From Herminiimonas arsenitoxidans (GTDB lineage Bacteria > Pseudomonadota > Gammaproteobacteria > Burkholderiales > Burkholderiaceae_D), in contig NZ_LT671418.1 in NCBI RefSeq assembly GCF_900130075.1, positions 1,178,001 to 1,242,000 on the forward strand: 64,000 bases of DNA, given 5' to 3'. The position numbers were made by a program, and so were the translations under genes. The first letter of the stretch is position 1. Each line of letters begins with the position of its first letter. This document shows, piece after piece, positions 21,321-49,012 of the stretch. Under the pieces are notes generated by a model that saw only the letters and a list, made by a program, of their open reading frames with translations, made no database searches and had not been told where the DNA came from.

Positions 21321-23012
<1,692 letters not shown>

Positions 23013-24838: not shown

Positions 24839-24941
24839 CTCAGGTCTATTAACACATCAATTTTTTTTGGTCTTAATTATCACTGATGGCTGTGAGTGTG
24901 CTTCACAGGATATGGTGTGTATACGGCACTCTTACACCTAC

Positions 24942-26740: not shown

Positions 26741-26772
26741 TATGTTTCCTCTTAGTTGCTTGTTCCGCATCT

Positions 26773-27228: not shown

Positions 27229-27241
27229 GTTGATCTCCTTG

Positions 27242-27832
27242 TCAGGCTGATTTTTCCCAACGCTTCTCTACTTTTCTCCAGGCTATGTTTTTCATGAATG
27301 CATCGACGTAGGCGGCAGCTTTGGTCTCAAAATCAATGTGATATGCATGTCTATACATATCCAGCGCTAGTAGTGGTACACCGCCTGCTAAAGTGTGGCA
27401 ATCGTCAGCCGTCCATTGATTGCTTAGCTTTCCATCTCGCGGTGATTTTTCGAGTAATACCCAGCCTGATCCTCCACCTAAAGCTTTGCCCATCGCTACA
27501 AATTCGGCTTGCCAACGCTCTACGCTACCGAAATCGCGTTCAATCGCACTACGTAATGACCCCTTAGGCAACAAACCATCTCCACCTAAAGAATCAAAAT
27601 AAATCTCATGTAACAACATGGAGTTATACGCAGTCAGTTCATCACGTTTGAGTGCGTTTAGAACAGAGCCAGGAACATGATCGAAATCGACATTTCCCAG
27701 TTGTTCCTGTATCGCATTCAAGCGCTTGACTGTGCCGCCATAGTTATTGCCGTAATGACTTTGGATCAACGCTGCAGATAGCCCCGACAAGGCTGTCGTA
27801 TCAAGAGAGAGCGGAAGTATTTCGTAGGACAT
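27242..27832 (-). CDS. chrC: Fe/Mn-type superoxide dismutase (ChrC)
   Basis: A 196-residue SOD from the ATG at 27832 (MSYEILPL). The metal ligands are recognisable: His in SHYGNNYGG, His in MLLHEIYF, Asp in PLLALDMYRHAY and His in HAYHIDF. In Cupriavidus chromate operons the SOD gene chrC lies next to chrA and chrB, as here, and removes superoxide formed by one-electron chromate reduction. The first-ligand region differs from housekeeping SodB (SHYGNN instead of HHxxHH), fitting the ChrC branch. Confidence 0.85.
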   Translation of the reverse strand: MSYEILPLSLDTTALSGLSAALIQSHYGNNYGGTVKRLNAIQEQLGNVDFDHVPGSVLNALKRDELTAYNSMLLHEIYFDSLGGDGLLPKGSLRSAIERDFGSVERWQAEFVAMGKALGGGSGWVLLEKSPRDGKLSNQWTADDCHTLAGGVPLLALDMYRHAYHIDFETKAAAYVDAFMKNIAWRKVEKRWEKSA

Positions 27833-27863
27833 TTTGTTCTCCAATCCAGCTCAACTGAATGAG

Positions 27864-29237: not shown

Positions 29238-30166
29238 GCTGAAATGTCCTGTTCGAAGGTGGTGAGCAGGCCATCGAAGATGCCTGAAGCAATTGCTAAA
29301 AGTTGATCGTCATCGGTAACGGTTGCACGTATGCCTGCCAGCGCACGTTCGATACCGCTAGCTTCCGGAGGTTGTATGCCTCCAGCGTCAATAAAGTGAA
29401 CGATGCCGCCCAAGCGAGCGAGTGCAGAGGAATCAAGGCCAAAGCTGGCCAACAAGGTTTCAAACGTCACCTTGGCACCGACATGAGAAAACGTCGCGCC
29501 ATCAAAGTCGAATCCCAGTGCATCAGCCGGGCAATCTGCCGGGGATGCCAGCCAGAGAATTTTCGCTTTAGGATCGATAAAGCGCCGAATCAGCCATGCA
29601 CTGGCCAGCCTGTCCATCCAAGGACGAGCACGCGTTGCCCAAATACGGCCACGATAATCGGCAAGCGATAAGCGCTGGATTTCTCCCGTAATGGAATGTG
29701 GCTCATCCGGCGATATGGTGCGGATTGCCGCTGTTTCCAGTTCTAGTAATGAGGCCGCAGTTTGTTTTTGTGATTCGCTGGAAAAGAAATCGATGGCCGC
29801 TAACTGATCAAAGGTTTTACGTAGTTTGCGCACTTGTTTGAGAGTTTCCGTGGCCGTATCGTCGCTAAGCTTGGCGCGATATTGCGCAATGTCATCGGAC
29901 AATGCGGCGAACTCTGTCGATCGATCAAACAAGGTAAGAAATGCATCGTTATCTGCACTCGTGTGGAGTAAGTATGTCGTGCCGCCATTCTTGTCGATAT
30001 CGTCGGCAATCTCGGACAGAGTTGCTTTACAGCCACTTTGTTCTGGCAATAGATAAACACCATCGCGCAAGACAGCTGCGCCGGAGGCTTTAAGTGCCCG
30101 CCATGCCCTCATCCGCGCTGTAGCATTCTCTGTTGGCAAGGTCAGAATGAGTAGAATCCATTTCAT
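29234..30166 (-). CDS. chrB: chromate-responsive regulator ChrB
   Basis: A 310-residue protein. The N-terminal part (MKWILLILTLPTENATARMRAWRALKASG) has the basic winged-helix character of ChrB, which in Ochrobactrum and Cupriavidus represses or senses chromate at the chr promoter. The C-terminal chromate-resistance domain shows TRARPWMDRLASAWLIRRF, GFDFDGATFSHVG and HFIDAGG. First gene of the chr operon, with a dyad-rich promoter region upstream. Confidence 0.92.
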   Translation of the reverse strand: MKWILLILTLPTENATARMRAWRALKASGAAVLRDGVYLLPEQSGCKATLSEIADDIDKNGGTTYLLHTSADNDAFLTLFDRSTEFAALSDDIAQYRAKLSDDTATETLKQVRKLRKTFDQLAAIDFFSSESQKQTAASLLELETAAIRTISPDEPHSITGEIQRLSLADYRGRIWATRARPWMDRLASAWLIRRFIDPKAKILWLASPADCPADALGFDFDGATFSHVGAKVTFETLLASFGLDSSALARLGGIVHFIDAGGIQPPEASGIERALAGIRATVTDDDQLLAIASGIFDGLLTTFEQDISA

Positions 30167-30801: not shown

Positions 30802-31524
30802 CTAGATCGAGCGTTGATTAACGCGTTTGCTCAATTCCGCAGCGCTTTCTCTACGCTCGCTGTAACGGTTCACCAAAAAGGTGGAAACATCGCGAGTAAG
30901 CAAAGTAAACTTAAACAGCTCTTCCATTACATCTACGACGCGCTCGTAGTACGACGATGGTTTCATACGGCCATTGTCATCAAACTCAAGGTACGCCTTT
31001 GCTACCGACGATTGGTTTGGGATGGTAATCATGCGCATCCACCGCCCAAGTATACGCATCTGGTTGACGGCGTTGAACGACTGCGAGCCACCAGATACCT
31101 CCATTACTGCCAAAGTTTTACCTTGCGTTGGGCGCACCGCCCCAATCGATAAAGGAATCCAATCAATCTGAGCCTTCATAATGCCTGTCATTGCACCGTG
31201 ACGCTCCGGTGAGGTCCAGACCATGCCTTCCGCCCATTCTGCCAAGCGCCTCAGTTCCTGAACCTTAGGATGTGTCTCTGGCTCAGTGTCTGGTAAAGGT
31301 AATCCTTGTGGATCAAAAATCTTTACATCGCCCCCCATGGCTTCCAGCAAACGAGCAGCCTCCATCGTTAGTAACCTACTATAAGATTTCTCGCGCAACG
31401 ACCCGTATAGCAATAAAAATCTTGGCGCATGCGAAGCTTTTGGAACCTCTGAAAAATTTTCTTGAACGGGTATCCGAAAGTGCTCTGGCACGATATTGGG
31501 TAAGTTAGTTACTTTGTGTGACAC
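30802..31524 (-). CDS. arsH: NADPH-dependent FMN reductase ArsH
   Basis: A 240-residue flavoprotein. FMN-binding signature [13 protein letters not shown] near residue 38, then [23 protein letters not shown] and [19 protein letters not shown], all characteristic of ArsH. ArsH oxidises trivalent methylated and aromatic arsenicals to less toxic pentavalent forms. Its start overlaps the upstream arsC by 20 bases. It is the last gene of the ars operon. Confidence 0.95.
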
Positions 31525-31942
31525 GTTGTCCCTCCTCGTTTATAACAAGCTCACCGTCTTCTTTGGCAAAAGATGCTTTAGGCGGTGGAGGCAAAATGTC
31601 CAACACCGCTTCCGAGGGACGACAAAGTCTTACTCCCATAGGAGCAACAACGAATGGGCGATTAATCAGAATCGGCTCAATCATCATTGCATTCAATAGC
31701 TGCTCATCGCTTACTTCGGGATTATCAAGACCCAGTTGCTGATACGGCGTCCCATTTTTGCGGATAGCTTCTCTTACCGAAATACCGGCATCGGCAATCA
31801 ATGCTTCTAGCTTTTGAAGTGACGGCGGATTTTCCAGATACTCGATAACCTCTGGCTCGATACCAAAGTGTCGAATGATCGCCAGCGTGTTGCGCGACGT
31901 GCCGCAATCAGGGTTGTGATAAATCGTAACTTTCATATTCAA
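31505..31942 (-). CDS. arsC: glutaredoxin-coupled arsenate reductase ArsC
   Basis: A 145-residue protein of the ArsC/Spx thioredoxin fold: [13 protein letters not shown] with the catalytic Cys near residue 13, EYLENPPS, and the arsenate-binding Arg region [10 protein letters not shown]...RLCRPSE. This type takes electrons from glutathione and glutaredoxin. A second, unrelated arsenate reductase lies at 34248-34757 of the same operon. Confidence 0.95.
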
Positions 31943-31964
31943 AATTCCTTGATAAGGGTGAAAC

Positions 31965-33155
31965 TTAGTTTTTGTTCATTGAAGTTGATGTGCAGGCAAA
32001 TAACACTGATCCCAGAACGCCGACTGCAATCAAGACAAGTAACGTCCCTACATAGCCATCAGTAAACGCGTACAACAGGGATGCCGCAAACGGACCAGCC
32101 GCAATTGCAACCATGACGGGCGCTCCCATCGCTCCACTTACCGCACCATAGGCTTCTCGACCATATAGTTCTGCAGGCAATGTTCCTCGAACAATGGTCA
32201 TGACCCCATTACTTATGCCGTACATTGCTGCAAAAACAGCGTAGATCGCTAGCCATTGATTGGGCGCAAATAGAAGGACTAGCGCCAAGGGCAACAGCCA
32301 CATGGCGAGTACGCCGACCTTATATGAAGACATTTTCCTACCGACTGTCGTTTCCAATATCCGTCCTAAAACTTGCATAGGGCCGACCATAGCCCCTATC
32401 GCTGCTGCATACGAAGGTGATATCCCTCGACTTTGCAGAATCGACATCAGGTGCAAAGACATTGCCGAGAATACGAGTGCATTGAAGGTCACTGCCGCTG
32501 TCAATAAGTAGAAACTTCTTTCACGCAGCACTGCCGCCAAACTTGCTTTGCCCTTTTGCACACGGGAGGAAATATCCGCTGTAGCTATATGCTTCGGCAA
32601 GAGAGCATGAATCGGAAAACACATCAAAAGATTAAGTACGGCATAAATCAACCACGTTTCTCGCCAACCAAAATGATCTGACAATGCCTGCGTCAATGGC
32701 CAAAATACAGTACTTGCGAAGCCACCAAACAACGTTAACGCTGTAATAGCGCGTCGATATCCTGTTCCGAAGACTTGTGTCAACACTGCAAAAGACGATT
32801 GATACAGCGTGGCACTCATCGCAACGCCTATGCCCGCCCATACAAGATAGAGTCCCAAGACACTTTGAACGTTGGCGAGCAAGGCTAACATTGCCGCTGC
32901 TAACAACGTCCCAACACCCATCAAAAGCCGCCCACCGATTCTGTCAATGATGGCACCGGCTAATGTGGATAAGCAGCCGGATATTAATAACGCTATTGAA
33001 TACGCACCAACCACAACCGATCTGGTTGTGTGAAGTTCAGTCTCCATCGGTTGCATGAGGACGCCATAGGCGTAGAACATAGACCCCCAACCGACAATCT
33101 GGGTAAGACCTAAAGCCGGTATAAGCCAGCTTCGTTTGGCGGTAGCAGTATCCAT
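31965..33155 (-). CDS. MFS transporter in the arsenic operon
   Basis: A 396-residue protein with about twelve membrane helices and MFS motifs (IDRIGGRLLMG between helices 2 and 3). The start abuts the ACR3 stop with no gap. In ars operons MFS proteins have been described as arsenite or organoarsenical exporters (ArsK, ArsP-like roles, ArsJ). Which substrate this one carries cannot be read from the sequence; a link to arsenicals is inferred from position. Confidence 0.85.
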   Translation of the reverse strand: MDTATAKRSWLIPALGLTQIVGWGSMFYAYGVLMQPMETELHTTRSVVVGAYSIALLISGCLSTLAGAIIDRIGGRLLMGVGTLLAAAMLALLANVQSVLGLYLVWAGIGVAMSATLYQSSFAVLTQVFGTGYRRAITALTLFGGFASTVFWPLTQALSDHFGWRETWLIYAVLNLLMCFPIHALLPKHIATADISSRVQKGKASLAAVLRERSFYLLTAAVTFNALVFSAMSLHLMSILQSRGISPSYAAAIGAMVGPMQVLGRILETTVGRKMSSYKVGVLAMWLLPLALVLLFAPNQWLAIYAVFAAMYGISNGVMTIVRGTLPAELYGREAYGAVSGAMGAPVMVAIAAGPFAASLLYAFTDGYVGTLLVLIAVGVLGSVLFACTSTSMNKN

Positions 33156-34226
33156 TTAGTTTTTTGCTTCGTACCATCCTTTGCTGCGATTGACGATACC
33201 GACGATCAGCAACATAACCGGCACCTCGATTAGTACACCAACTACAGTGGCAAGCGCTGCACCAGACTTAAACCCGAACAAGCTGATTGCCGCTGCTACT
33301 GCCAATTCAAAGAAGTTAGATGCACCAATCAAAGCCGATGGGCATGCAACCGAATGCTTTTCGCCGACAACTCTATTCAACCAATACGCCAGTGCTGAGT
33401 TGAAAAATACTTGAATGAGAATTGGGACCGCTAGCAATGCAATAATTAGTGGCTGTTCGATGATTGCGCTACCCTGAAACGCAAACAGCAATACCAAGGT
33501 CAACAACAAAGCCGAGATTGACCAAGGCTGAATGCTATCCATGACCTTGTCGAAACTAGCTTGTCCCTTCTTCAATAACAACTTACGCCAAAACTGAGCG
33601 ATTAAGACTGGAACAACAATATAAAGTACGACCGATGTTAACAACGTATCCCATGGCACTGTAATACTAGACACCCCCAAGAGAAACGCTACCAGTGGGG
33701 CAAACGCAAACACCATAATTAGATCGTTCATCGCGACCTGCGACAACGTAAAGTATGGGTCACCACCAGTAAGGCGACTCCAGACAAATACCATCGCTGT
33801 ACAAGGTGCTGCCGCCAATAAAATTAATCCTGCCACATACGAATCTAATTGATCTGCAGGAAGGTACGCAGCAAACCAATGCCGAATAAATAACCACGCT
33901 AGGAAAGCCATTGAGAACGGCTTGACAGCCCAGTTAATGAAGAGGGTTACACCAATACCCCGGACGTGACCTTTGATCTGATTCCATGCTGAGAAATCAA
34001 TCTTGATCAGCATGGGAATGATCATTACCCAAATCAGTATGCCAACAGGCAAATTAACTTTAGCAATTTCCAACGAACCAATTGCTTGCACGCCAGACGG
34101 AAATATCTGCCCAAGCAAAATCCCGACAACAATACATACTGCAACCCAAATGGTGAGGTAGCGCTCAAATACACTCATTGATGCACTTGCGGCACGCTTG
34201 CCGGTGACTTCGCATTGAACAGACAT
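33156..34226 (-). CDS. acr3: arsenite efflux permease ACR3
   Basis: A 356-residue ACR3-type arsenite/H+ antiporter of ten helices. The essential Cys lies in L-A-A-A-P-C-T-A-M-V-F-V-W-S-R-L-T-G-G, and the conserved Glu in V-L-I-E-V-P-V-M-L. It extrudes As(III) made by the two arsenate reductases. Gap to the upstream arsC is 21 bases. Confidence 0.96.
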   Translation of the reverse strand: MSVQCEVTGKRAASASMSVFERYLTIWVAVCIVVGILLGQIFPSGVQAIGSLEIAKVNLPVGILIWVMIIPMLIKIDFSAWNQIKGHVRGIGVTLFINWAVKPFSMAFLAWLFIRHWFAAYLPADQLDSYVAGLILLAAAPCTAMVFVWSRLTGGDPYFTLSQVAMNDLIMVFAFAPLVAFLLGVSSITVPWDTLLTSVVLYIVVPVLIAQFWRKLLLKKGQASFDKVMDSIQPWSISALLLTLVLLFAFQGSAIIEQPLIIALLAVPILIQVFFNSALAYWLNRVVGEKHSVACPSALIGASNFFELAVAAAISLFGFKSGAALATVVGVLIEVPVMLLIVGIVNRSKGWYEAKN

Positions 34227-34247
34227 TATTTTTAGCCGTAATTGATA

Positions 34248-34757
34248 TTAAAGTTTGGTGCCAATGGCATCCATCTCGCGTTTGAGTGCTGTTTTTTCCA
34301 GCATCGCGATTGGCAAGCTATTGAGAAGGTTTACTCGGGTATAAATCTGTTTTGCCACCTTGGAAAACACCGCACGCTTTTCTTCGTCCGTACCTTTTGC
34401 AGCTGCTGGATCTTCAAATCCCCAATGCGCAGAAACCGGTTGTCCCGGCCAGAATGGGCAAACTTCACCCGCTGCGCTGTCGCATACGGTAATCACGATG
34501 TCCATGTGTGGAGCATCTGGCAAGGCGAATTCATCCCAGCTTTTGCTTCGTAGGTTGTCGAGCGCATAGCCTGTGCCTTTAATTTGCTCAATCGCAAAAG
34601 GGTTAACTGTGCCGCCAGGGTGACTACCCGCGCTATATGCTTTAAAGCGTCCCTTACCCATGGTGTTAAGCATTGCTTCAGCCATGATGCTGCGTGCGGA
34701 GTTGCCTGTGCAGAGAAAAAGGACGTTGTACGTCTTGTCATTCTGATCGGTAGTCAT
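34248..34757 (-). CDS. arsC: thioredoxin-coupled (LMW-phosphatase type) arsenate reductase ArsC
   Basis: A 169-residue protein from the ATG at 34757 (AAGGAAGAAAT ribosome site; the longer frame runs into arsR). The low-molecular-weight phosphatase P-loop is L-C-T-G-N-S-A-R-S near residue 16, followed by YSAGSHPGG, VCDSAAGEVCPFWPG with the resolving Cys pair, and HWGFEDPAAAKG. It reduces arsenate with thioredoxin. Second gene of the ars operon. Confidence 0.94.
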   Translation of the reverse strand: MTTDQNDKTYNVLFLCTGNSARSIMAEAMLNTMGKGRFKAYSAGSHPGGTVNPFAIEQIKGTGYALDNLRSKSWDEFALPDAPHMDIVITVCDSAAGEVCPFWPGQPVSAHWGFEDPAAAKGTDEEKRAVFSKVAKQIYTRVNLLNSLPIAMLEKTALKREMDAIGTKL

Positions 34758-34800
34758 ATTTCTTCCTTTGTGGGGAGGGTTGGTAAAACAGCTGTAACAA

Positions 34801-35136
34801 CTAGGAATGCTCTTCTTCGTGGGTGTTGCAAGTCCCATTAGGCAAGCAAACATTTCCGCCACAACAGTTTTCCGTCAGAAAACCGATCAACGAATTCATC
34901 GTAGTGAAGTTGGCGGAATAGATCACAAACCGACCTTCATGCCGTGCTGTAATCAGATCGGCGTGGGTTAATTCTTTGAGGTGAAAAGACATCGATGAAG
35001 GCGCGATGCCCAGTTGCTCTCCGATTTTGGTAGCAGCCAGCCCCTCTGGACCAAGTTGAACCAGCAGACGAAAAACTGCTAGGCGAGATTCTTGCGCCAA
35101 GGCTGCTAATGCAGCAATAGTTGCTTTGGTGTCCAT
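34801..35136 (-). CDS. arsR: ArsR/SmtB-family arsenic repressor
   Basis: A 111-residue winged-helix repressor from the ATG at 35136. DNA-recognition helix region IGEQLGIAPSSMSFHLKELTHADL and wing RHEGRFVIYSAN. The C-terminal tail has C-C-G-G-N-V-C-L-P-N-G-T-C, a cluster of Cys suited to As(III) sensing at the C-terminus rather than in the alpha3 helix. First gene of the ars operon, next to a long palindrome. Confidence 0.93.
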   Translation of the reverse strand: MDTKATIAALAALAQESRLAVFRLLVQLGPEGLAATKIGEQLGIAPSSMSFHLKELTHADLITARHEGRFVIYSANFTTMNSLIGFLTENCCGGNVCLPNGTCNTHEEEHS

Positions 35137-35145
35137 AGAAACTCC

Positions 35146-35185
35146 TTTATTCGATAATTCAATAATAGTTGAATTATCGAATAAA
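35146..35185. promoter_or_regulatory. ars operator, 17-bp perfect palindrome
   Basis: Arms TTTATTCGATAATTCAA and its exact complement, separated by TAATAG, lie 10 bases upstream of the arsR start codon. Almost certainly the ArsR binding site overlapping the promoter. Confidence 0.85.
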
Positions 35186-35344
35186 TGCAAATTTCAAAGA
35201 TATTTTTTCATGCCAAGAGTTTGCATGGAAGCATGCAATTTACTCGACACACTCGCGCCTAACTTATTATTAAACCTTCTGGCGCTGTAATTGGGGATCG
35301 GGTCGAGCGGGATCAGTAGCTCAAAATTGAACCATATCCCGATG

Positions 35345-36540: not shown

Positions 36541-38520
36541 ATGGCAAAAAATGACACCATTCTCATCGATACCCTTTTACAGCACCATGCAGCAAAAAAT
36601 CCAACTGAACAGTTGAGTGACGTCTTTGAAAAATTCGTTATGGATCAGGTTCTAAAAAATTTCGATCTGACGAATGAAGAACTGAATTACGGCTGGGTAG
36701 ATGGTGCTCTCGATGGGGGCATTGATGGCTTCTACGTATTAGTCAACGGCAGATTGGTTACAGAGGCAAGCGATTTTTCGTGGCCACGCTCGGGAGCTGA
36801 AATCCAAGTGTATCTAATCACTTGCAAACATCAAGCGACGTTTTCCCAAGCCCCTCTAGACGCACTGCTGGCTACAGTACAGGATATATTTGATCTCGAT
36901 CGTACTAATGCAGAATTAGTAGGGAAATACTCACCGGGCATCAAGAAAAGTCGTGACGCATTTGCTGCAGCGTTTAGGAATCTTTCACTTGGTCGTCCCT
37001 CACTCTCATTTAATCTCATTTACGCATCGCGAGGTGACGCAACAAAACTGGGGGAAAGTGTTGCTGCGCGAGCTCAGCAACTTACCGACTTGTTTCAATC
37101 ATATTTCAGCGCATCCACTGCTACATTCGTGCCGTTGGGTTCTACAGAACTTGTGGAGATGTACAGAGAAATACGTACCTTCGCATTGGATCTTCCAGTT
37201 CAGGAAAGTTTAACGGCAGGTCAGGAAGGATACGTTGTACTGACAAGCCTTCATGATTACAGCTCTTTCGTTCAAGATGAGAAAGGTCAACTGAGGAGGT
37301 ATTTGTTTGATTCGAATGTTCGCGCGTATTTAGGTGAGAATCTGGTCAACGACGATATTACCCAAACACTTGCAAACAGAGATTCCCCCAATTTCTGGTG
37401 GCTCAATAACGGCGTCACGATTCTCGCAACAAGCGCGTCATTAGTAGGCAAGATTCTTAAGTTAAAAGATATTCAAATTGTGAATGGACTCCAAACTACT
37501 GAATCTATTCACAGATTTTTTTCAATTAAGAACAACGTCCCTCCGCTAGAGGACAAAAGGAGCTTGCTTGTAAAAGTAATCGTGTCTCAGGAAGAAAATA
37601 TCCGAGATCAGGTAATTCGCGCCACCAACAATCAAAGTACGGTTGAACCAGCGGCTCTCCACGCTACAGATAGAATACAAAGAGATATTGAGGACATTCT
37701 TCTTCGCTATGAATGGTATTACGAACGTAGAACAAACCATTATAAAAATGAAGATCGCCCCGATGCACGAATTATATCTCCGCTACTAATTGCTACGGGA
37801 GCTGTGGCACTTCTCCTAAAGAATCCCATTAAATCTTCCAAATTCAGACAAAAGATCTTACGTTCACCAGAAGCCTATCACCTCGTGTATTCCGAACATT
37901 TCCCGCTGGACGTTTGGCCGGTTGTCGCTGCATTGATGCGCGGGTCTGAAAGCTCCATTTTGCGGACAAAAACCGTCAACAGGGCAATCTTACAAAAGCG
38001 AGTGTCTGCTTGGCGAGGAGTACTTTCGTATTTTGCAGCAGCCAGATTGACAGGATCGTGTGCTTTTACCCATCAATGTCTAATTAGTTTAGATGTAAAT
38101 AAACTGACTGATGAGTTTATGGATGAATGTTGGACCGAGATGTTCAAAGCTATCGCAAATCCTAATGCGCCGAAGGCCAATGAAACTCACATTATGAATA
38201 TCGCACAAGTGTTTAAAACAAGATGGATGGTTAATGGGCATCCTGCAGATGGCTTACGTGCTATACCTGAACCAACTAATGGATCTAGCTTTCACAGAAC
38301 TGCTAGCGAAGAATTTTTAAAAATGGTTTACGACGCACTTCCGGTCCAACCTTGGATGACTGGCGTGCATCATCAAGTCGCTAAAGCTTTGAATATAAAA
38401 CCTTCTCGGGCAAGTAAAGCTATTCAGATATTGATGGATCGTGGGTCTGTATATAGACAGATTGATGGAATCGTTTATGACGATGATGGTCACGAAGTTT
38501 CAAGAGATGAGGCCCGTTAG
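36541..38520 (+). CDS. AIPR-family protein, probable phage-resistance effector
   Basis: A 659-residue protein. The AIPR (abortive infection phage resistance) core is clear: F-D-S-N-V-R-A-Y-L-G, VNDDITQTL, FWWLNNGVTI near residue 285 and I-V-N-G-L-Q-T-T-E-S from residue 313, then RATNNQSTVEPAALHA. The N-terminal 130 residues contain GGIDGFYVL and VYLITCKHQ, the spacing of a PD-(D/E)XK-like nuclease with Cys in place of the usual Glu/Gln before Lys. The C-terminus (KALNIKPSRASKAIQILMDRG) looks like a winged helix. Probably cytoplasmic. Defence role is inferred from the family. Confidence 0.85.
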   Translation: MAKNDTILIDTLLQHHAAKNPTEQLSDVFEKFVMDQVLKNFDLTNEELNYGWVDGALDGGIDGFYVLVNGRLVTEASDFSWPRSGAEIQVYLITCKHQATFSQAPLDALLATVQDIFDLDRTNAELVGKYSPGIKKSRDAFAAAFRNLSLGRPSLSFNLIYASRGDATKLGESVAARAQQLTDLFQSYFSASTATFVPLGSTELVEMYREIRTFALDLPVQESLTAGQEGYVVLTSLHDYSSFVQDEKGQLRRYLFDSNVRAYLGENLVNDDITQTLANRDSPNFWWLNNGVTILATSASLVGKILKLKDIQIVNGLQTTESIHRFFSIKNNVPPLEDKRSLLVKVIVSQEENIRDQVIRATNNQSTVEPAALHATDRIQRDIEDILLRYEWYYERRTNHYKNEDRPDARIISPLLIATGAVALLLKNPIKSSKFRQKILRSPEAYHLVYSEHFPLDVWPVVAALMRGSESSILRTKTVNRAILQKRVSAWRGVLSYFAAARLTGSCAFTHQCLISLDVNKLTDEFMDECWTEMFKAIANPNAPKANETHIMNIAQVFKTRWMVNGHPADGLRAIPEPTNGSSFHRTASEEFLKMVYDALPVQPWMTGVHHQVAKALNIKPSRASKAIQILMDRGSVYRQIDGIVYDDDGHEVSRDEAR

Positions 38521-39744: not shown

Positions 39745-39987
39745 ATGCCAAATCTTTCAAAAATGCGCCAAGACCCTGACCTTATTGCTCTTGGTTCTGC
39801 CCTGCGACGATTACGTTTAGAACGCGACATATCCCAAGAGCGTTTGGCCTTATTGGCTGACGTCGACAGAAGTTATGTTGGTCGAGTTGAGCGAGGTGAC
39901 AACAACGTAGCACTGCTGACGTTGAAACGTTTAGCGGCAGCGCTAGAGCTATCGATGGCAGACTTAATGACCGAAGCTGGCCTTTAA
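39745..39987 (+). CDS. XRE-family transcriptional regulator
   Basis: An 80-residue single-domain helix-turn-helix protein: SALRRLRLERDISQERLALLADVDRSYVGRVERGDNNV is the Cro/C1-type fold, continuing to LKRLAAALELSMADL. Such proteins often control restriction-modification or integrase genes. Its TAA overlaps the stop of the convergent tyrosine recombinase gene (shared TTAA), so the two transcripts are antisense at their ends. Confidence 0.9.
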   Translation: MPNLSKMRQDPDLIALGSALRRLRLERDISQERLALLADVDRSYVGRVERGDNNVALLTLKRLAAALELSMADLMTEAGL

Positions 39988-41048
39988 CCTATTCGACTGT
40001 TAATGCGATTGATGGCATCACGTGCTTTCATACTTGTTTGACTCAATTCCAAATGTGCGTAAATCATCGTCGTTTCAATTTTTGAATGTCCGAGGATTTC
40101 CTTCACTTCATATAAGCTCAACCCGTTCTGCAATAAGCGTGTCGCCAATGTGTGTCTGAAGGTATGCACATGACAGCTTTCCAGCCCGGCACGACGAATC
40201 GCCTTACGTATCGATTGGGTTGAGTAGCCGCGAGCTAGACCTTTGCGGTTTTGGAATACGTGTGGCCCGTTTCTTTTGCGCTTGAGCAGCATGTAGTACA
40301 CCCGATCAGTCATATACAACACAGATCCATTGGAAACCTTTGATCTCCAAAGATGAATAATCCGGGTGTCCATATCGATACGTGCCCATTCTATGTTTGC
40401 CAATTCGCTATAGCGGCCACCGACATCCAATAGCAATATGGTCAAGTCGTATGCATCCTGAAGCATTTGCTGCATTTCTTCGGATCGCTCTACAAATGGA
40501 CTAAGTCCCCTCCCTTCCCTAGCTGGATCAAGACAAGTGAGCAGATGTGTTTCTTCCTCTTCAGACATGAATCGAACAGGTGGTTTAATAATTTTTACCT
40601 GGGGAAATTCAATTACACCGACTTGATAACCCATTTTTCGTGCAAATTCACACGAACCACGGATCAAATTCAAGTTGTGCTTGATCGTTTGGTTGCTAAT
40701 GCCAGCACTAGTGCGGATTTGCTTGAATCGCTCCAGCTCATGGGATGTCAATTCATCGATGTACTTAGTAACCGAGAAATGCCGAGCAACCACGTTTGCG
40801 CATGACATCAGGCCTTGATAACTAGGTGTGTTCTTACGTGAGTCACAGAACTGGGCCATTGCTTGGCCTAGCTGAATGCGCTCTTTGCGACCCAGGAATA
40901 GATTGGCATGCAATTGAGTGCGCCATTCCGCCTCCATTTGCACCGCGGCCTTCTTGTTGGTTGTTTTCGATGAACGGATGTAGGTGACGCCATTTAACTG
41001 GAAATGGATATACCAATATTTGCTGTTACCTCGTTTGACAATACTCAT
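39984..41048 (-). CDS. tyrosine recombinase/integrase
   Basis: A 354-residue phage-type integrase from the ATG at 41048 (MSIVKRGN). An AP2-like arm-binding N-terminus (WYIHFQLNGVTYIRSSKTTNKK), a core-binding SAM-like domain, and the catalytic domain with Arg in D-V-G-G-R-Y-S-E-L, HTFRHTLATRLL (His-x-x-Arg) and Tyr in G-H-S-K-I-E-T-T-M-I-Y-A-H. The catalytic set appears complete. It is one of two unrelated recombinases in the island; it lies next to hairpin-rich DNA rather than at an island end. Confidence 0.92.
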   Translation of the reverse strand: MSIVKRGNSKYWYIHFQLNGVTYIRSSKTTNKKAAVQMEAEWRTQLHANLFLGRKERIQLGQAMAQFCDSRKNTPSYQGLMSCANVVARHFSVTKYIDELTSHELERFKQIRTSAGISNQTIKHNLNLIRGSCEFARKMGYQVGVIEFPQVKIIKPPVRFMSEEEETHLLTCLDPAREGRGLSPFVERSEEMQQMLQDAYDLTILLLDVGGRYSELANIEWARIDMDTRIIHLWRSKVSNGSVLYMTDRVYYMLLKRKRNGPHVFQNRKGLARGYSTQSIRKAIRRAGLESCHVHTFRHTLATRLLQNGLSLYEVKEILGHSKIETTMIYAHLELSQTSMKARDAINRINSRIG

Positions 41049-41103
41049 GGCATTACATAGGTCTTGAATACCTGACCATCCATGGATACCCAGCTGATGA
41101 CAA

Positions 41104-41290
41104 CCTATTGATTGAGAAAATCTGTTGTTGCATGCAACCACGAAGCAACGCTGAAGGTGGTTGCATGCAATCAATCATTCGCCGTTGGCGAATGCATACA
41201 TCGTTGATGATTGGGATTATTCGTGCTTCGCACGTGAAAGATTCGATTTGCCGCACTCGCTTTGCGAGTTTGCAGATCTCATCTTTCAGT
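41104..41290. repeat. cluster of inverted repeats upstream of the integrase gene
   Basis: Four consecutive dyads: TTGCATGCAACCAC/GTGGTTGCATGCAA (41128-41170, 14-bp perfect arms), CATTCGCC/GGCGAATG (41176-41194), CGTGC/GCACG (41222-41234) and TGAAAGAT/ATCTTTCA (41235-41288) enclosing ACTCGC/GCGAGT. No coding frame is convincing here. Could be an integrase site, an origin or a structured RNA. Confidence 0.75.
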
Positions 41291-41716: not shown

Positions 41717-42217
41717 TTACTGCGCGGGCTTCTTTTCCTTTGAAGCGCGGCGTCGGCAGTTATACCAATATGTTTGCGCACCTTTTGGGGTCAACGTCGC
41801 ACCTTCAACAAAAGCTGCAATGATCATTTCCTTTGATTCATTGCTGATCTGTGGGTACATGACACGCGCTGCATCTGCTTTCGTTTTACCTTCAGCGATC
41901 AACGCTTTTCCTTCTGCAATCGCCTTCTGGATCGTTGGCTTTGTCAAATCAATGACGACTGCTATCTCCGCTTCTTTGCTGATTTCAGGTTTGCTTGTGT
42001 TTCCTACAGCTGCTTCTTTCTTGGACATAACCATTCCCCAAAGTTGATTGATGATTTCATCTGCCTGAATAGGCGGAATCGTCTCGAATCCAGGAATGTT
42101 CTCGAAATAGTCGTTCACCACCTCCGCAAATTCGCCACGGCTCATTTCTGCAGATGGGCAATGGTCCATAACCATTTGAACGAGTACTTCAGCCTGTTCG
42201 GTTGTAAGCGTGTACAT
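41717..42217 (-). CDS. unknown protein of the polymerase module
   Basis: A 166-residue protein from the ATG at 42217 (MYTLTTEQAEVLV), preceded by AAAGGGA. The N-terminal half is acidic and helical; the C-terminal half (IAEGKALIAEGKTKADAARVMYPQI, then TLTPKGAQTYWYNCRRRASKEKK) looks like a helix-turn-helix domain with a basic tail and could bind DNA. Downstream of the 284-residue gene on the same strand, ending at a strong terminator. No family recognised. Confidence 0.7.
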   Translation of the reverse strand: MYTLTTEQAEVLVQMVMDHCPSAEMSRGEFAEVVNDYFENIPGFETIPPIQADEIINQLWGMVMSKKEAAVGNTSKPEISKEAEIAVVIDLTKPTIQKAIAEGKALIAEGKTKADAARVMYPQISNESKEMIIAAFVEGATLTPKGAQTYWYNCRRRASKEKKPAQ

Positions 42218-42278
42218 GAACATCCCTTTAATCAAGACATGTCCACCATCCATTCAAACGGGTAATAGGTCCACAGAA

Positions 42279-43133
42279 CTACTTCTGATACTTTGGGAAA
42301 ATACCCTTACAAACGTTTTCAATCATGAAGTCAGCGCATTTTTTGTATCTTGCTATCGTGGCAGCCTGACTTTCGTAGGTTGGCTCGTGGGGTATTTCGT
42401 ATGGCGTCACGTTGATCTTCTTCTTACGAGCAATGATTTCGTCGCCAGGTTCCCGCTGGCTGGCTATATGCGCTTCAATTTGGTTCTTTGGAATATTAAG
42501 TTCACCTCTTTCTATCAGTTCATAGGTGTCGTATACCTCCAGCGCGTTCCTAAGCAACCGCGTCCGCGGTTTACAGCGTGCATTTTGGACTGCATAGATG
42601 TAGTACCCATCATCCAAACCCGGCACAAGATCTTGTGAATTAAAGTTCGGATCATAGCGATATCGCCCTTTCACTACGTGCTTTTTCTCCCATGTGTCTA
42701 TCATTTGTGAGAAGCGCTTCATGAGGCGATCTTTTGACCAAGAAAGCTGAACAACGAACGCCTTCATGTCACTGTCCTCTTGGTAGATATCTGGTTCAAA
42801 CATACCGATTTCGTCTTCGCCTTCCAACTGTTGAATGTCGAATGACCTCATTCGTCGAAAAACCCGGCTGTGCTGAAACCACCATTCCTCAAAGGTAAGG
42901 ATGGTCTCACCAGCAGTAGCTGTGACGTTGGCAAAGTCATGCCGAACATCTTGCGTCCATTCTTTTCGATCCGAACGGCGCATGAATTCATACCAGTAAT
43001 AGAAAACCTCTATTTCGTAAGCGCTGAACGGTTGTGACAAACGCCGATCACTCTCTGTCCATCCATCCCCGTCGCACTCTGGCACGTCAAAAAGTAATTT
43101 TTCACGCCCTTTTCCATCGATTTTTACTTTCAT
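42279..43133 (-). CDS. unknown 284-residue protein of the polymerase module
   Basis: MKVKIDGKGREKLLFDVPE..., start preceded by a near-perfect AAAGGAGG ribosome site. Soluble, rich in aromatic residues (FYYWYEFMRRSDRKEW, EEWWFQHSRVFRRM) and charged; no signal peptide or membrane helix. No family recognised. Divergent from the small gene and polymerase to its right, sharing an intergenic promoter region of 120 bases, which suggests a role in the same replication or transfer process. Confidence 0.75.
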   Translation of the reverse strand: MKVKIDGKGREKLLFDVPECDGDGWTESDRRLSQPFSAYEIEVFYYWYEFMRRSDRKEWTQDVRHDFANVTATAGETILTFEEWWFQHSRVFRRMRSFDIQQLEGEDEIGMFEPDIYQEDSDMKAFVVQLSWSKDRLMKRFSQMIDTWEKKHVVKGRYRYDPNFNSQDLVPGLDDGYYIYAVQNARCKPRTRLLRNALEVYDTYELIERGELNIPKNQIEAHIASQREPGDEIIARKKKINVTPYEIPHEPTYESQAATIARYKKCADFMIENVCKGIFPKYQK

Positions 43134-43253: not shown

Positions 43254-43529
43254 ATGACATGGCTGAATCTGCCTGATGGCAACCAAATTGACACCGTTCT
43301 CGTTCGCTCGGTGATGCTTTACAAGGGAAAAGGAATTGCTGTTCGTGACGCGCAGCAGCGCCTCGCTGCGTACGTGAAAATTGAAGATCACCAGAAAGGC
43401 GAGCGTGCACGCGATGCCATTCTTCTGCGTGTGAAGAACCAGCGTTCAGGAGATATCGACTGGACCTTCTTGAGCGAGACATCCTCATTTCCACCTATCG
43501 AAGCTGCCAATTCTGAATCGCCACAATAA
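43254..43529 (+). CDS. unknown 91-residue protein preceding the DNA polymerase
   Basis: MTWLNLPDGNQIDTVLVRSV..., preceded by TAAGGAG. Compact, beta-rich pattern with basic patches (RDAQQRLAAYVKIED, RVKNQRSGDIDW), possibly a small nucleic-acid-binding domain (inference only). It lies 71 bases upstream of the polymerase gene on the same strand, with a hairpin between them. Confidence 0.7.
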   Translation: MTWLNLPDGNQIDTVLVRSVMLYKGKGIAVRDAQQRLAAYVKIEDHQKGERARDAILLRVKNQRSGDIDWTFLSETSSFPPIEAANSESPQ

Positions 43530-43600: not shown

Positions 43601-46300
43601 ATGAACATTCAAACAAATAATACGAACGCCACCGAAAACCAATCCGAAGAGTGCAACAAGCCACCTCTGGTGAGTGAACCGCTCAAATACACCATCAGCG
43701 ACGCTTGCAACGATGATGATTTCACTGACAATCTAATCGATCCAGAGAAAGAACTTGAGCGTGAACTGCAAATCTTTGACCGTCAGATTGAGGAGTTGAC
43801 GAAGGCAGGTGACACTCCCGTCATTGGCCAAGGTCCAGAAGTCGTGATCGGCTTCGATTCCGAATATGTATTCGCCAGCGAAGAAGAAAAACGCAACCGT
43901 TATCTGAGCCTGCAGTTTTATGTAATCGGTGAAGGAAAGACTTATACAAAGGTCATTTACCCATCTGGCCCACTGCAAACTGATCGTCCCGCTTTCTATC
44001 CCACAATCATCAGCTTGCTGCAAGAGTGTGTTGATGATGGCGTGATTCGTGAATGGCCAAGCAAAGTGATCTTGTCAGGCTTCTTCCTGCGTACCGACTT
44101 AGCAGCCTTCCGCGATCTATCTTCGTTCAAAACACAACTTGATGTCGCCAGTGGAAAAGTGACGACTGTAGGCTCGCCAGTTCAATTTCAGCCCGAGTCG
44201 CCTGAACACGACGGGAATCGCCTCAAACCCAAGTTTGTGGTCGTAAAAGAAGCTGCCGGTTTCACTCGTGGGCTGGTAGTTCGTTTCATCGATATCGGTA
44301 GCCATGTCGCCGTAGGCACAACGTTAGCTGACATCGGTGAACAGATCGGATTGCCCAAATTGGCCATCCCTGATGGTTATAGCATTGAGCGCATGGATGA
44401 ACTTTTAAAGGGTAACAAACCTGCATTTGAAGAGTACGGGATGCGTGACGCCGAAATCGCTGCCCATTACTACCAAAAACTTAAAGCTTTCGCCCTTACC
44501 CATACAGAGAGTCGCTCAGTTCCTTCCACTGCTTCGGGGCTGGCTGTTCGCATGCTCTTGTCGCAACTGGATCAGCAAGGCACCAACTTTCATGACACGT
44601 TTGGCTTCGAAGAAAAGAAAGGTGTGTACTGGAATAACGTCAAAGGTTCTGTGGTGACTCAGAAATCCGTCATTCCGACCGAGATGCGTGCAATCACGGA
44701 GCCATTCGTTGCTAAGTGTTATCACGGTGGTCGTAACGAATGCTATACGTTTGGACCAACACAGGTTTCGGTGTGGAACGACTTCGATCTGGCTGGTGCA
44801 TACACAACTGGCTTAGTTGATCTGCGTCCCGTCGATTACGACAGCTTCTGGCATACAAAGGATGAGTTGAATTTTGTTGGTCACGTTGTTGGCTTTGCCC
44901 TCGTTGAATTCGAGTTCCCAGCGGATACAAAATTTCCATGCCTTCCAGTCGAAGGTTCAAATGGCGGTTTGTTTTATCCCCTCAGCGGCCGCTCCTATTG
45001 CACCGCTCCAGAAATCGAGGTCGCATTGGGCATGAATTGCTCAATTAATGTTCTTCACGGTGTAATTATTCCTTGGTGCGAAGATGTGGACGATAGCGAT
45101 TCACGTATCTTTGAAAAATTTACCACCGGGATTCGTGATCTGCGTCGTAGTTTTATCAAAGGTTCGCCGGACGAGCTGTACGCTAAGCTGATCGGGAATT
45201 CGCTTTACGGTAAGACGGCTCAAGGACTGAAGAAGAAAACTGTTTTCGACACACACGGCTTGAAAAGCATCGAACTGCCTCCTTCGAAAATCACGAATGC
45301 CATCATTGCGGCGCATACAACCGGATTCATCCGCGCTGTATTGAGCGAACAGATCGCCCGCGTTCCTGCCGGAAAAACTGTAATCAGTGCCACCACAGAT
45401 GGCTTCATTACGGATGCTGAATTGTCTGAGCTTGACCTGACAGGCCCCATGGCTATTCGGTATCAATCTCTATGTGACCGCGTTGCTCCCGGAACAAAGA
45501 TGCTTGAGATGAAACACAAAGTTCGCCAATTGGTCGCTGTTAAAACGCGCGGGCAAATTACTGCCGTCCCGTTCGAAGGCGAAAAGCCAATCTTGGCAAA
45601 GGCCGGTGTTTCGCCGTCGGTCCCTACTGATCAGCACAATAGTTTTATGCTTGATCTGTTTTTGAATCGCAAACCGGGCCAAACAACAATGTCAAAGCCA
45701 TTCACTTCGATCCGTGAGCAATGGCGGAAGAACACCGACGTTGTGCGCCTGACTCGTGAAGCCACCTTGAATCTCGAATACGACTTCAAGCGCAATCTGA
45801 TTGATGGTGACGGCATGCTACCTGTCGGCTCCATCAATCACATTAATTTACAAACTAAACCATGGAAACATATAGACGATGCTGAAACAACACGCGCTTT
45901 ACATAGTGGCTGGAAGCGCCAGCATTGCATTAAGGATGTCGATGATTGGATGGATTGGTCAGAGCATGTTGCTTTTTCCGTGGTTCGCGCCCGACTGAAA
46001 AATAAAGGAAGCAACATACGTTTAACCACTAAGAAAGGATTAGCTGGTGTCTTTTGTCGTATGTTCTTAGTCGCTTTCACCAACCAAATGCACGGCATCA
46101 AAAAGACTATGAAATATGCCGAAGTTGCTAATTGGTTGACGGAAGCTGGCTATCCTACATCCCTAGAAGATGTGAAGAACTCAAGACGTGGCAAGTTCTA
46201 CGAACACGTCATTCCACCATCTAATCGCATGGACGAACTTTCCTACGTGTTACTTGAAAAATTTCCAGAAATGGATCTGCCGAAGTTTTACGTTCAATAA
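43601..46300 (+). CDS. family B DNA polymerase of a mobile element (possible primer-independent PolB)
   Basis: An 899-residue PolB. Proofreading motifs: Exo I G-F-D-S-E-Y (D86, E88), Exo II LRTDLAAF (D166), Exo III Y-G-M-R-D (Y279, D283). Polymerase motifs: A N-D-F-D-L-A-G-A-Y (D396), B K-L-I-G-N-S-L-Y-G (K529-Y536), C T-T-D-G-F (D600). Motif C has TTDG where most PolBs have DTDS, and spacing resembles protein-primed phi29-like enzymes. The first 75 residues are acidic and probably disordered. About 280 residues follow motif C. No terminal-protein gene is recognisable, so a primer-independent (pipolin-type) polymerase is plausible but not proven. Start chosen at 43601 with an AAGGA ribosome site. 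Confidence 0.88.
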   Translation: MNIQTNNTNATENQSEECNKPPLVSEPLKYTISDACNDDDFTDNLIDPEKELERELQIFDRQIEELTKAGDTPVIGQGPEVVIGFDSEYVFASEEEKRNRYLSLQFYVIGEGKTYTKVIYPSGPLQTDRPAFYPTIISLLQECVDDGVIREWPSKVILSGFFLRTDLAAFRDLSSFKTQLDVASGKVTTVGSPVQFQPESPEHDGNRLKPKFVVVKEAAGFTRGLVVRFIDIGSHVAVGTTLADIGEQIGLPKLAIPDGYSIERMDELLKGNKPAFEEYGMRDAEIAAHYYQKLKAFALTHTESRSVPSTASGLAVRMLLSQLDQQGTNFHDTFGFEEKKGVYWNNVKGSVVTQKSVIPTEMRAITEPFVAKCYHGGRNECYTFGPTQVSVWNDFDLAGAYTTGLVDLRPVDYDSFWHTKDELNFVGHVVGFALVEFEFPADTKFPCLPVEGSNGGLFYPLSGRSYCTAPEIEVALGMNCSINVLHGVIIPWCEDVDDSDSRIFEKFTTGIRDLRRSFIKGSPDELYAKLIGNSLYGKTAQGLKKKTVFDTHGLKSIELPPSKITNAIIAAHTTGFIRAVLSEQIARVPAGKTVISATTDGFITDAELSELDLTGPMAIRYQSLCDRVAPGTKMLEMKHKVRQLVAVKTRGQITAVPFEGEKPILAKAGVSPSVPTDQHNSFMLDLFLNRKPGQTTMSKPFTSIREQWRKNTDVVRLTREATLNLEYDFKRNLIDGDGMLPVGSINHINLQTKPWKHIDDAETTRALHSGWKRQHCIKDVDDWMDWSEHVAFSVVRARLKNKGSNIRLTTKKGLAGVFCRMFLVAFTNQMHGIKKTMKYAEVANWLTEAGYPTSLEDVKNSRRGKFYEHVIPPSNRMDELSYVLLEKFPEMDLPKFYVQ

Positions 46301-46364: not shown

Positions 46365-48155
46365 CTATGATGAAAGCTCGACCGTGACTTTACTCGGGTC
46401 GTCAAAATCTGGATAAATCACACGAACACCTTCCTTTCGCGCCTGAATCACAAAATAGCGGCCAATATCCCTGCGAGACGCATAACGCGCTGTGCCCACT
46501 CGTTTTGGCTCCGTTCGATAATCCTGAAGGTAATCAGCAATACGTTTTGCGTCGTAACCAACTTTCGTCAATTGCTCACGCATTGTCTTCAGTTCCTCGG
46601 GTGAGGTCAGTTTCCCAGCAGGATGCACTCGTACCTCTTTGAACAACCTACGTATTTTGTCTGCCAGGGCAGCCCTCAGTAAAAATAATTCATCGCCAGT
46701 TTTTTCCTCGAGCCTATTAATAACATCCTGCACCGACTGTAATTCCCGCGAATCATTTTTTTCAGCTAGGGCTAGCGCTTTAATTTGTGTCTGTAGTTCT
46801 ACTTTTCTTAAGTTTGCGGAAGCAATGCTACTTTCCAACACCTTCATCCGTTCAATTAATGCGTCAGGCGCTGTGTGCCCACTCTCTAAGGCCAAAAGCA
46901 AGTTACCGACTTTGCGATTACTCTCTTGAATCTCTGCGTCCGTCAGTTGCAACTCGTCTTGTAAAGTGCGTACTTTGTCTTCTGCATCAGTGTTCTTATC
47001 CAAGTCGTCCAGCAATTGCTGTAGCTCCAACCCCCGACAAAAGGATAGAAAACTCTTTTCGAGGTCTTTATAGTCCCATCTGACCGCGTAACAGCCCAAA
47101 CCCCTTCTTGCCTCATCACACACCAGTACTTTTTTGGATAATCGTACACTCGTCACTCCATCTGGCCCGATGCTCCTTTTTGCAGTAGCCCCCGCCAAAA
47201 CCATTGACGATCCGCAGTAACCGCACTTGACCAAGCCACTTAGCAAATTAGGAACGTCCACTCCTCGCTTCCCGGTCCGACCAAACAACCTCAACTCACG
47301 TGTATTTTTCATCACAAGGAATTCTTCCTTGCTCATCAACGCTGGGAAGTAGTTTTGGATTGAGTCACCGTGCGGTTGATTTTTGCCATCAATCCATAGG
47401 TGGGGTTGAAACTCACCATGAAGCGCTGGGCTATTCAGTATCTTGCAGATATAAGAAGTGTGCCAACCGTTGCCATGATTTGAAAAATGCTTTTCTTTAC
47501 GCTCATTCAGTCTTTTGGCTATCAGCGCTTGGCCTATACCATTGAGAGACCAATTGATAATTTCCTTGATGATCGCTACGCGTTCTGGAATAAACGTAAA
47601 AGTTGTTTTATCGGCGCTAAGTGCCAGCCAGCGGGGGCATTGAGCTGTCAGCTTTTTCTCGGCGATCTTATTCCGCTTATTTTGCCAAGCCGATTTTATT
47701 CGTTTACTTTTTGTTAATGATTCTTCATGCGCCCTTGCCATGATCATGATGGACATGACCAGATTGCTGTAATTATTTGCTATGGAGTCCTCGTTGTACT
47801 CCATCCCGTCAGCCAAGGTAACAATCGTGATGCCCTTCCGCATGATGGATGTAAAGACCTCCAGCGCGTACAACACCTGCTCTCTTGATAAACGGTCGAG
47901 TGATTCAACCAATAGAATTGACCCGCGGGCAATTCGACCGCTTTCAACAGCATTTAAAAAGCCACCCAAAGCACCTTTTCGGAGATTGGAGCCATCAAAG
48001 GCCGAGACTCCAAGGTCGTGTAGCCGGAATGACTGATCAAGCGTCAGGTTGTGCTCTTGGGCGTACTGCTCAGACAACTCTATTTGACGGCGAAGCGAAT
48101 CACCTTTTAGCTGCTCCGCTCTGGAAAATCGGACGTACGAATATGCAATTGTCAC
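46365..48155 (-). CDS. large serine recombinase (island integrase)
   Basis: A 596-residue large serine recombinase. The resolvase-type N-terminal domain carries Y-V-R-F-S-R-A-E-Q with the nucleophile Ser11, then LLVESLDRLSREQ; the recombinase domain follows, then a zinc ribbon (VKCGYCGSSM and C-D-E-A-R-R-G-L-G-C) and a long coiled coil (about residues 395-480) as in phage integrases. The start is GTG at 48155 with a weak ribosome site. The gene lies 50 bases inside the right junction in comEC, the position expected for the enzyme that inserted the island. Confidence 0.95.
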   Translation of the reverse strand: MTIAYSYVRFSRAEQLKGDSLRRQIELSEQYAQEHNLTLDQSFRLHDLGVSAFDGSNLRKGALGGFLNAVESGRIARGSILLVESLDRLSREQVLYALEVFTSIMRKGITIVTLADGMEYNEDSIANNYSNLVMSIMIMARAHEESLTKSKRIKSAWQNKRNKIAEKKLTAQCPRWLALSADKTTFTFIPERVAIIKEIINWSLNGIGQALIAKRLNERKEKHFSNHGNGWHTSYICKILNSPALHGEFQPHLWIDGKNQPHGDSIQNYFPALMSKEEFLVMKNTRELRLFGRTGKRGVDVPNLLSGLVKCGYCGSSMVLAGATAKRSIGPDGVTSVRLSKKVLVCDEARRGLGCYAVRWDYKDLEKSFLSFCRGLELQQLLDDLDKNTDAEDKVRTLQDELQLTDAEIQESNRKVGNLLLALESGHTAPDALIERMKVLESSIASANLRKVELQTQIKALALAEKNDSRELQSVQDVINRLEEKTGDELFLLRAALADKIRRLFKEVRVHPAGKLTSPEELKTMREQLTKVGYDAKRIADYLQDYRTEPKRVGTARYASRRDIGRYFVIQARKEGVRVIYPDFDDPSKVTVELSS

Positions 48156-48205
48156 AACACACTCAAAATAGTTGCCAAAATGAAATTATACTATTTTTTA
48201 TGTGT

Positions 48206-49012
48206 TTATAGCCCTGATATTGAAATCAGGTGTGACACCCCCGCACGATTGAACACATTCCAGTCCGCCTGACTGATGGCGCGCTGATCGCCCACCACCA
48301 AAGCAACGATCACGCCGGCATACGGCTTATCCTGCAAGGCATTCTGTATCCGACTACGCAACCAGCCGCGAGATCGCTCAACTACGTTATTGAAACTGTA
48401 GACAAAACTATCCAAACGCTCATTCTTGAATTCAGAACGTTGATCAGGGCGCACATAACCAGTTGCTCTAATGTTTTGCTCAAGCAGCCACACTTCATAA
48501 TCGAAACCATGCGGATTGGCATTGCCGTGCGGACGACGCAAGCGCACCGTCAATTGCCAGCGCTCACCAGCATGCACTTCACCAACTGCCTGCAATTCAT
48601 CTTGATTAAAAGCGGAATACCAGGACAAAGACAATTTGGAAGGAATAACAGGAACGACGCCATCTAATGGCATGACTTTTTCGACCGCGAAATTGAAGCG
48701 CACGCCGCGCTCGAAATAACTAGGCAAGCTATCTATCGTACCGACGATGGTGACGTCTTTTCCTTCCAAATCCTTAGGCAATTTCTGCGTTAAGTAATAC
48801 TGGGCAAACAAAGCCGCCCATGCAAAGCCCAGCGCAGCCCCCATCATTGCAAGCAGAGGGATTTTTAATTTATGCAGAAGAGAATAGCGAACGAGTGCGG
48901 CCAGCACACAGGCTGCGATAAGCAAAAGCAGAATGGAAAAATACTTGGGGAGCGATGCTTGCGTCTGCAGCCACGCAGCTCCAATGACAAAGCCGATGAT
49001 CGCGCTACGCAT
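48206..49012 (-). pseudogene. comEC: comEC, 5' part (N-terminal), gene split by the island
   Basis: The 268-residue N-terminal piece of ComEC: three hydrophobic segments in the first 75 residues, then the soluble OB-fold-like region (DVTIVGTIDSLP, GERWQLTVRLRRPHG, FDYEVWLLEQ) and the start of the competence domain (GVIVALVVGDQRAIS, VSHLISISGL). It stops at the island boundary. Joined to 24838-23210 it would give a ComEC of about 810 residues, the normal length. It lies 8 bases after tatD. Confidence 0.93.
48209..48226. other. right attachment-site repeat (attR)
   Basis: Read on the minus strand this encodes I-S-I-S-G-L and is directly followed by an island-derived TAA stop (48206-48208), which ends the N-terminal comEC fragment. 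Confidence 0.75.

Follow-up and report, generated by a model that had tools for sequence, protein, structure and literature searches.

A probable pipolin-kind integrative element with a large serine integrase in the comEC gene of Herminiimonas arsenitoxidans

The window, i.e. the whole stretch of 64,000 nucleotides from Herminiimonas arsenitoxidans that was analysed (contig NZ_LT671418.1, positions 1,178,001 to 1,242,000), contains an island of 23,388 bp from core to core (24834-48223) which splits comEC and has a G + C content of 0.464 as compared to 0.516 in the rest of the window. Very probably, this island is an integrative element of the pipolin kind that entered comEC by means of a large serine integrase and that combines a family B DNA polymerase (PolB) of the primer-independent type (piPolB) with a cargo of metal and AbiU-type genes. 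In window coordinates, its features and those of the interrupted host gene are:

23210-24811, minus strand: C-terminal half of the host gene comEC (PF03772; tblastn match to residues 263-804)
24834-24869: attL, with the core GA (plus strand) at 24834-24835 and the element arm at 24836-24869
25688-26827, minus strand: EamA-family transporter (cargo)
26773-30166, minus strand: chromate cargo, comprising ChrB, a chromate transporter, an Fe/Mn superoxide dismutase and a second ChrB C-terminal domain
30802-35190, minus strand: arsenic cargo, comprising HTH_20, LMWPc, SBF, MFS, ArsC and FMN reductase
36541-38520, plus strand: AIPR/AbiU-type protein, putative abortive infection (cargo; Pfam AIPR; PADLOC AbiU, E 7.9e-147)
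39745-39987, plus strand: HTH_3 regulator
39984-41174, minus strand: Xer-like tyrosine recombinase, 60% identical to that of the Dechloromonas locus and 53% identical to that of the Methylotenera locus
41717-42253, minus strand: 178-aa protein, with counterparts at the equivalent position of five related elements
42279-43133, minus strand: 284-aa protein, divergent to PolB and likewise with counterparts at the equivalent position of the five related elements
43254-43529, plus strand: small conserved protein (91 aa) encoded just before PolB; homologues precede piPolB in the five related elements and in ten more loci
43601-46300, plus strand: piPolB-type family B DNA polymerase of 899 aa with the motif C TTDG
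46365-48155, minus strand: large serine integrase (596 aa), located at the island's attR end (Pfam Resolvase, Recombinase and Zn_ribbon)
48188-48223: attR, with the core GA (plus strand) at 48222-48223 and the element arm at 48188-48221
48206-49012, minus strand: N-terminal half of the host gene comEC, its last codons extending into the element end

In the orientation of comEC, the right junction reads CTGATT-TC-AATATCAGGG and the left junction CTGAGATT-TC-GATTTCTGG, the core dinucleotide GA of the plus strand being TC on the comEC strand, and a crossover at this TC rejoins the two halves of comEC in frame to SHLISISGLHITM. The joined ends of the element form an inverted repeat centred on TC with 23 of 34 pairs being symmetric, the maximum at 22,890 internal positions being 20. 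As neighbouring bases are also common to both ends, the exact two-base core is the most symmetric choice and not a proof. The piPolB thus belongs to a mobile element with defined borders and attachment sites, the site being located in comEC and not, as in pipolins of the E. coli type, in att direct repeats overlapping a tRNA gene. The proposal of the first-pass annotation, namely that a pipolin-like element is inserted in comEC beside a serine recombinase, has accordingly held at the resolution of single bases and in four further hosts (see below).

Among 12 further genomes of the genus, 11 have a comEC that reads through the site, nine with full-length frames of 807-850 aa, one (G007) with a frame of 344 aa and one (G003) on two contigs. 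In the remaining genome (G009), a Tn7-like element resides in comEC about 60 nt upstream of the pipolin site; it carries TniB, TniQ/TnsD, a weak match to a Mu-type transposase as well as DncV-like and patatin-like genes reminiscent of CBASS (L108/L109). An island common to the window and G009 was ruled out, as the G009 insertion is Tn7-like and protein comparison yielded no shared island genes.

Four related piPolB islands are found at the same comEC codon, in Dechloromonas, an Azonexaceae MAG, Rhodocyclaceae UBA2250 and the MAG STC_100. Three of the piPolB loci (L005, L006 and L011) run into the C-terminal half of comEC, and genome searches located the N-terminal half together with an adjoining serine integrase of 604-612 aa in the genomes of these three loci and in STC_100; since in UBA2250 (L005) the integrase with the comEC N-terminal half and the PolB are on separate contigs, their linkage is presumed there. 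Each of the five comEC islands has one dinucleotide common to its two junctions, the ends lying on two contigs in UBA2250. On the comEC strand it reads TC in the window and UBA2250 and AG in Dechloromonas, the Azonexaceae MAG and STC_100, it always comprises the first two bases of the same comEC Ser codon, and the joined comEC is in frame in all five islands (computed for four, read by eye for STC_100). The symmetry of attP, given as matching pairs out of 34 about the core together with the number of local positions that are at least as good, amounts to 23 in the window (0 of 22,890), 22 in Dechloromonas (0 of 16,391), 20 in the Azonexaceae MAG (0 of 17,890), 19 in UBA2250 (80 of 22,425) and 17 in STC_100 (100 of 11,890). 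The best offset is 0 in five of five islands, the symmetry being clear in three and modest in two (UBA2250 and STC_100).

The STC_100 contig (L150-L152, L007 and L008) has the order comEC N-terminal half, element, element, comEC C-terminal half, with attP at the junction between the two elements. The copies are 34,385 bp apart and identical at every inner position compared; 180 of 26,006 positions differ, all of them at contig positions 1-125 or from 34,513 onwards, where comEC flanks are compared with the element. This double copy is either a tandem array or due to reads from an excised circle, two states which the contig cannot separate.

With respect to the polymerase, all three exonuclease motifs and motifs A, B and C are present, so that the first-pass description of complete exonuclease motifs and motifs A and B together with an altered motif C was borne out. 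Its comparison is based on an alignment of 70 chosen rows, consisting of the window protein, 35 of 119 other listed database proteins, 31 of 82 genome or viral loci and three plasmid proteins. The motif-C core TDGF is found in 70 of the 70 rows and TTDGF in 69. As the 31 genome and viral rows were partly found via patterns that include motif C, the 38 rows from database proteins and plasmids, which were not found through such a pattern, offer the fairer test, and TDGF is kept in all 38. In addition, the first Asp of motif C is reported to be missing from pipolin PolBs, which are active nonetheless (PMC11071308, a preprint). Constancy across the group and this reported activity together indicate that the deviating motif C characterises the group; the idea that it marks a dead enzyme was ruled out because TDGF is constant in the family.

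The Pfam match to the window PolB is weak, whereas 1,815 of 7,997 scored database proteins match it at E ≤ 1e-3, the closest among the matches listed (P0002-P0006) being 85-87% identical. It shares 37% identity over residues 74-894 with the PolB of an E. coli locus (L019) that carries tRNA-Leu, the published integration site for E. coli pipolins (PMC7385651), and matches the S. epidermidis plasmid pSE-12228-03 by tblastn with an E-value of 3e-31. In the phylogeny which had been called for as a check, the window PolB groups with piPolBs and apart from the protein-primed PolBs of phages, the split at the root being weak (support 70, long branches). These comparisons support the assignment of the window PolB to the piPolB group. 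A search of genome contigs with the single PolB protein gave 11 pattern matches of which none was confirmed, while a search with the PolB alignment yielded 124 relatives, 80 of which were taken on as 79 loci.

The serine integrase has the Resolvase, Recombinase and zinc ribbon domains as well as the short core within an inverted-repeat attP that characterise large serine integrases, and its position and site suggest that it would be the enzyme performing the recombination at comEC. In a tree comprising all but 2 of 17 sources, the five comEC integrases form one clade (support 96/97), within which the window integrase shares no more than 39-41% identity with the others; the Methylotenera integrase, from a host with an intact comEC, does not belong to it.

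PolB and the genes for the ~91-aa, 178-aa and 284-aa proteins keep their order and orientation in six elements, homologues of these three genes upstream of PolB being found in L005, L006, L007, L009 and L011. In all five of these relatives, a D5_N/DUF5906 helicase with a Walker A motif follows 11-12 bp after PolB. A profile of the D5-type helicase detected no further copies in the window or L002-L086, a search for a helicase remnant in the window gave none (best E 0.17), and the DUF5906 domain is absent from the whole genome from which the window derives. The 284-aa protein was considered as a replication initiator and set aside as a candidate, its structure model being too poor to judge (pLDDT 42.7). 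Within the arsenic cargo, we take HTH_20 to be ArsR-like, SBF to be ACR3-like and the FMN reductase to be ArsH-like. Restriction systems occur in two relatives scanned (L006 and L007), and no structured RNA in the island matched Rfam at the gathering threshold.

In the genomes sampled, the polymerase is rare: it was found in none of 99 other relatives, none of 391 other genomes of the family and none of 368 others of the class, but in 16 of 395 genomes of the family of the Dechloromonas genome, where the hits are mostly distant or fragmentary. By profile, and within the fetched stretches with flanks of at most 10 kb, tyrosine recombinases occur in 53 of 85 loci and window-type serine integrases in 3 of 85, a count outside which the comEC integrases of L005, L006 and L011 fall because they lie beyond these flanks. 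Large serine recombinases of other types are located near the piPolBs of L066, L077, L079, L081, L082 and L083, including actinobacterial and SUP05 loci, and in Bradyrhizobium (L071:9201-14300) a piPolB broken into two frames is followed by a large serine integrase of the window type. Since serine recombinases are thus also seen near piPolBs of Actinobacteria, SUP05 and Bradyrhizobium, they accompany piPolBs in several lineages, and the linkage taken alone is not unique. Among the remaining loci, a Pseudosulfitobacter plasmid (L004) carries a PolB whose two parts are separated by IS66 genes, mob genes and a tyrosine integrase being nearby, and in the family of G472 (L164-L168 and L176-L178) some frames are longer (993-1129 aa) with a two-part match around window residue 500.

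On the basis of the precise junctions, the large serine integrase may be assumed to recombine attP, at the two-base core, with a target in comEC's conserved ISISGLH segment, which would leave attL and attR and split comEC. Judged by family membership, the likeliest role of PolB would be to start and carry out DNA synthesis with neither a primase nor a terminal protein, using as template either the excised circle or single-stranded element DNA after transfer, and we infer from the same relationship that it starts synthesis without a primer. In the relatives, PolB is coupled to the D5-type helicase in what appears to be one operon, and both might copy excised or entering DNA; the window copy would need a host helicase instead, or may be impaired. 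The chromate, arsenic and AbiU-type genes are cargo. Loss of comEC would be expected to stop natural transformation, as its inactivation did in the assay of PMC11472951.

Other readings differ in which enzyme they hold responsible. If the polymerase were that of a protein-primed phage or linear plasmid, this would be in line with its predicted structure, for which the closest solved fold is the phi29 polymerase (aligned over residues 77-725) and the closest viral models are PolBs of the protein-primed type; a sequence search of solved structures gave no match. However, by sequence the polymerase falls among the piPolBs, CDTDS is present in three of the four protein-primed rows of the tree (a simple pattern found no motif in the fourth), and no terminal protein, a kind of protein that is easily missed, was recognised among the ORFs scanned. 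PolB relatives were moreover detected in only 7 of 50,697 phage records, with at most 30% of the query covered, and on the tree grouping and this search a protein-primed phage polymerase was rejected as exceedingly improbable. It is also very unlikely that the tyrosine recombinase at 39984-41174 acts as the integrase and that the serine recombinase was inserted later. Tyrosine recombinases have been proposed to integrate E. coli pipolins (PMC7385651), and the one in the window has close homologues in the Dechloromonas and Methylotenera loci; yet the neighbour of the comEC N-terminal half is the serine integrase, both in the window and in each of the four relatives, where the two share a contig (the UBA2250 PolB being on another one), the two-base core and the inverted-repeat attP fit serine integrases, and profiles detected no tyrosine recombinase in the fetched stretches of L005, L006 and L007, which are parts of the elements. 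The first-pass contrast between the tyrosine recombinases usual in pipolins and a serine recombinase here needs correction insofar as the window element, like pipolins, carries a tyrosine recombinase too.

Two further readings take PolB out of the replication of the element. That the island is a generic serine-integrase genomic island, with the pipolin polymerase a passenger outside its life cycle, would agree with the large cargo region, the missing helicase of the window copy and the presence of related serine recombinases in phage and plasmid records (111 and 35, respectively), where PolB searches gave only distant relatives. We consider it unlikely in view of the conserved order and orientation of PolB and its three neighbours and of the fact that a PolB clade and an integrase clade are both common to the five comEC islands. 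Somewhat less remote, though still improbable, is a function of piPolB in DNA damage tolerance or defence, the element being moved by its integrase alone and copied by the host: the role of piPolBs is described as unclear and damage tolerance as putative (PMC9710591), and the window copy lacks the helicase, but the close spacing of the PolB and helicase genes (11-12 bp in 5 of 5 relatives) speaks for a part in replication or strand conversion. An integrative element in which PolB takes part thus remains the preferred reading.

The sequence data suggest that the comEC islands represent a distinct, little-described branch of pipolins. No report of serine-integrase pipolins in comEC was found in the literature searched, which left out the 2017 discovery paper and the 2024 pipolin survey; since the latter reportedly discusses alternative integrases and integration sites, part of this finding may be known. 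Of the combination that the first-pass annotation did not know to be described (a pipolin-like element with a large serine recombinase, comEC as target and chromate and arsenic resistance), the part concerning comEC may be new, while large serine recombinases near piPolBs are not unique as such. Whether the islands constitute a separate pipolin lineage, probably of Betaproteobacteria, which unites a serine integrase for the comEC Ser codon with a primer-independent PolB and a D5-type helicase and which evolved independently as a B-family counterpart of SCC-like cassettes, appears to us evenly balanced. If so, landing in comEC would switch off natural transformation of the host and with it a possible route of element removal. 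The repeated insertion of unrelated elements into comEC, such as the Tn7-like one in G009 and Phi1207.3 (PMC4260502), would agree with an antagonism between mobile elements and natural transformation. The function of piPolBs in their elements is described as unsettled (PMC9710591), and a PolB-helicase lineage with base-precise att sites makes their role directly testable. The window copy provides a natural helicase-less version for comparison.

Casposons, the integrase of which is Cas1, and polintons gave no match in this analysis. Both resemble the window element in being mobile elements with a PolB of their own, polintons differing by a retrovirus-like integrase (PMC7385651). Among plasmid pipolins, S. 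epidermidis pSE-12228-03 and the Fusobacterium and Helicobacter PolB plasmids have a homologous PolB with a TDG motif C (23-26% identical to the window PolB by tblastn and 21-22% over the alignment), and pSE-12228-03 carries a small serine recombinase; they differ in being circular, with an annotated relaxase in two of the three, and in not being integrated via a large serine integrase. The pipolins of E. coli at tRNA-Leu share the PolB with a TTDG motif C, XerC-like tyrosine recombinases and a variable cargo (L019; PMC7385651), whereas the window element has a serine integrase, comEC as its target and a cargo of metal resistance, with a D5 helicase beside PolB in its relatives. Tn1207.3/Phi1207.3 of streptococci is likewise a serine-recombinase element in comEC at a GA dinucleotide, but it is a prophage with macrolide efflux genes, for which the excerpted account mentions no piPolB (PMC4260502). 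Finally, the gene set also resembles that of the PolA-SSB primase islands of Bacillota and SCC (CcPol-MP; PMC10061031), which combine a polymerase of the primer-independent kind with a D5_N-type helicase, a large serine recombinase and a small protein adjoining the polymerase. Their polymerase belongs to the A family and is accompanied by an OB-fold SSB, in contrast to the B-family PolB of the window, and the parallel suggests that self-priming polymerases, helicases and serine recombinases have repeatedly come together in islands.
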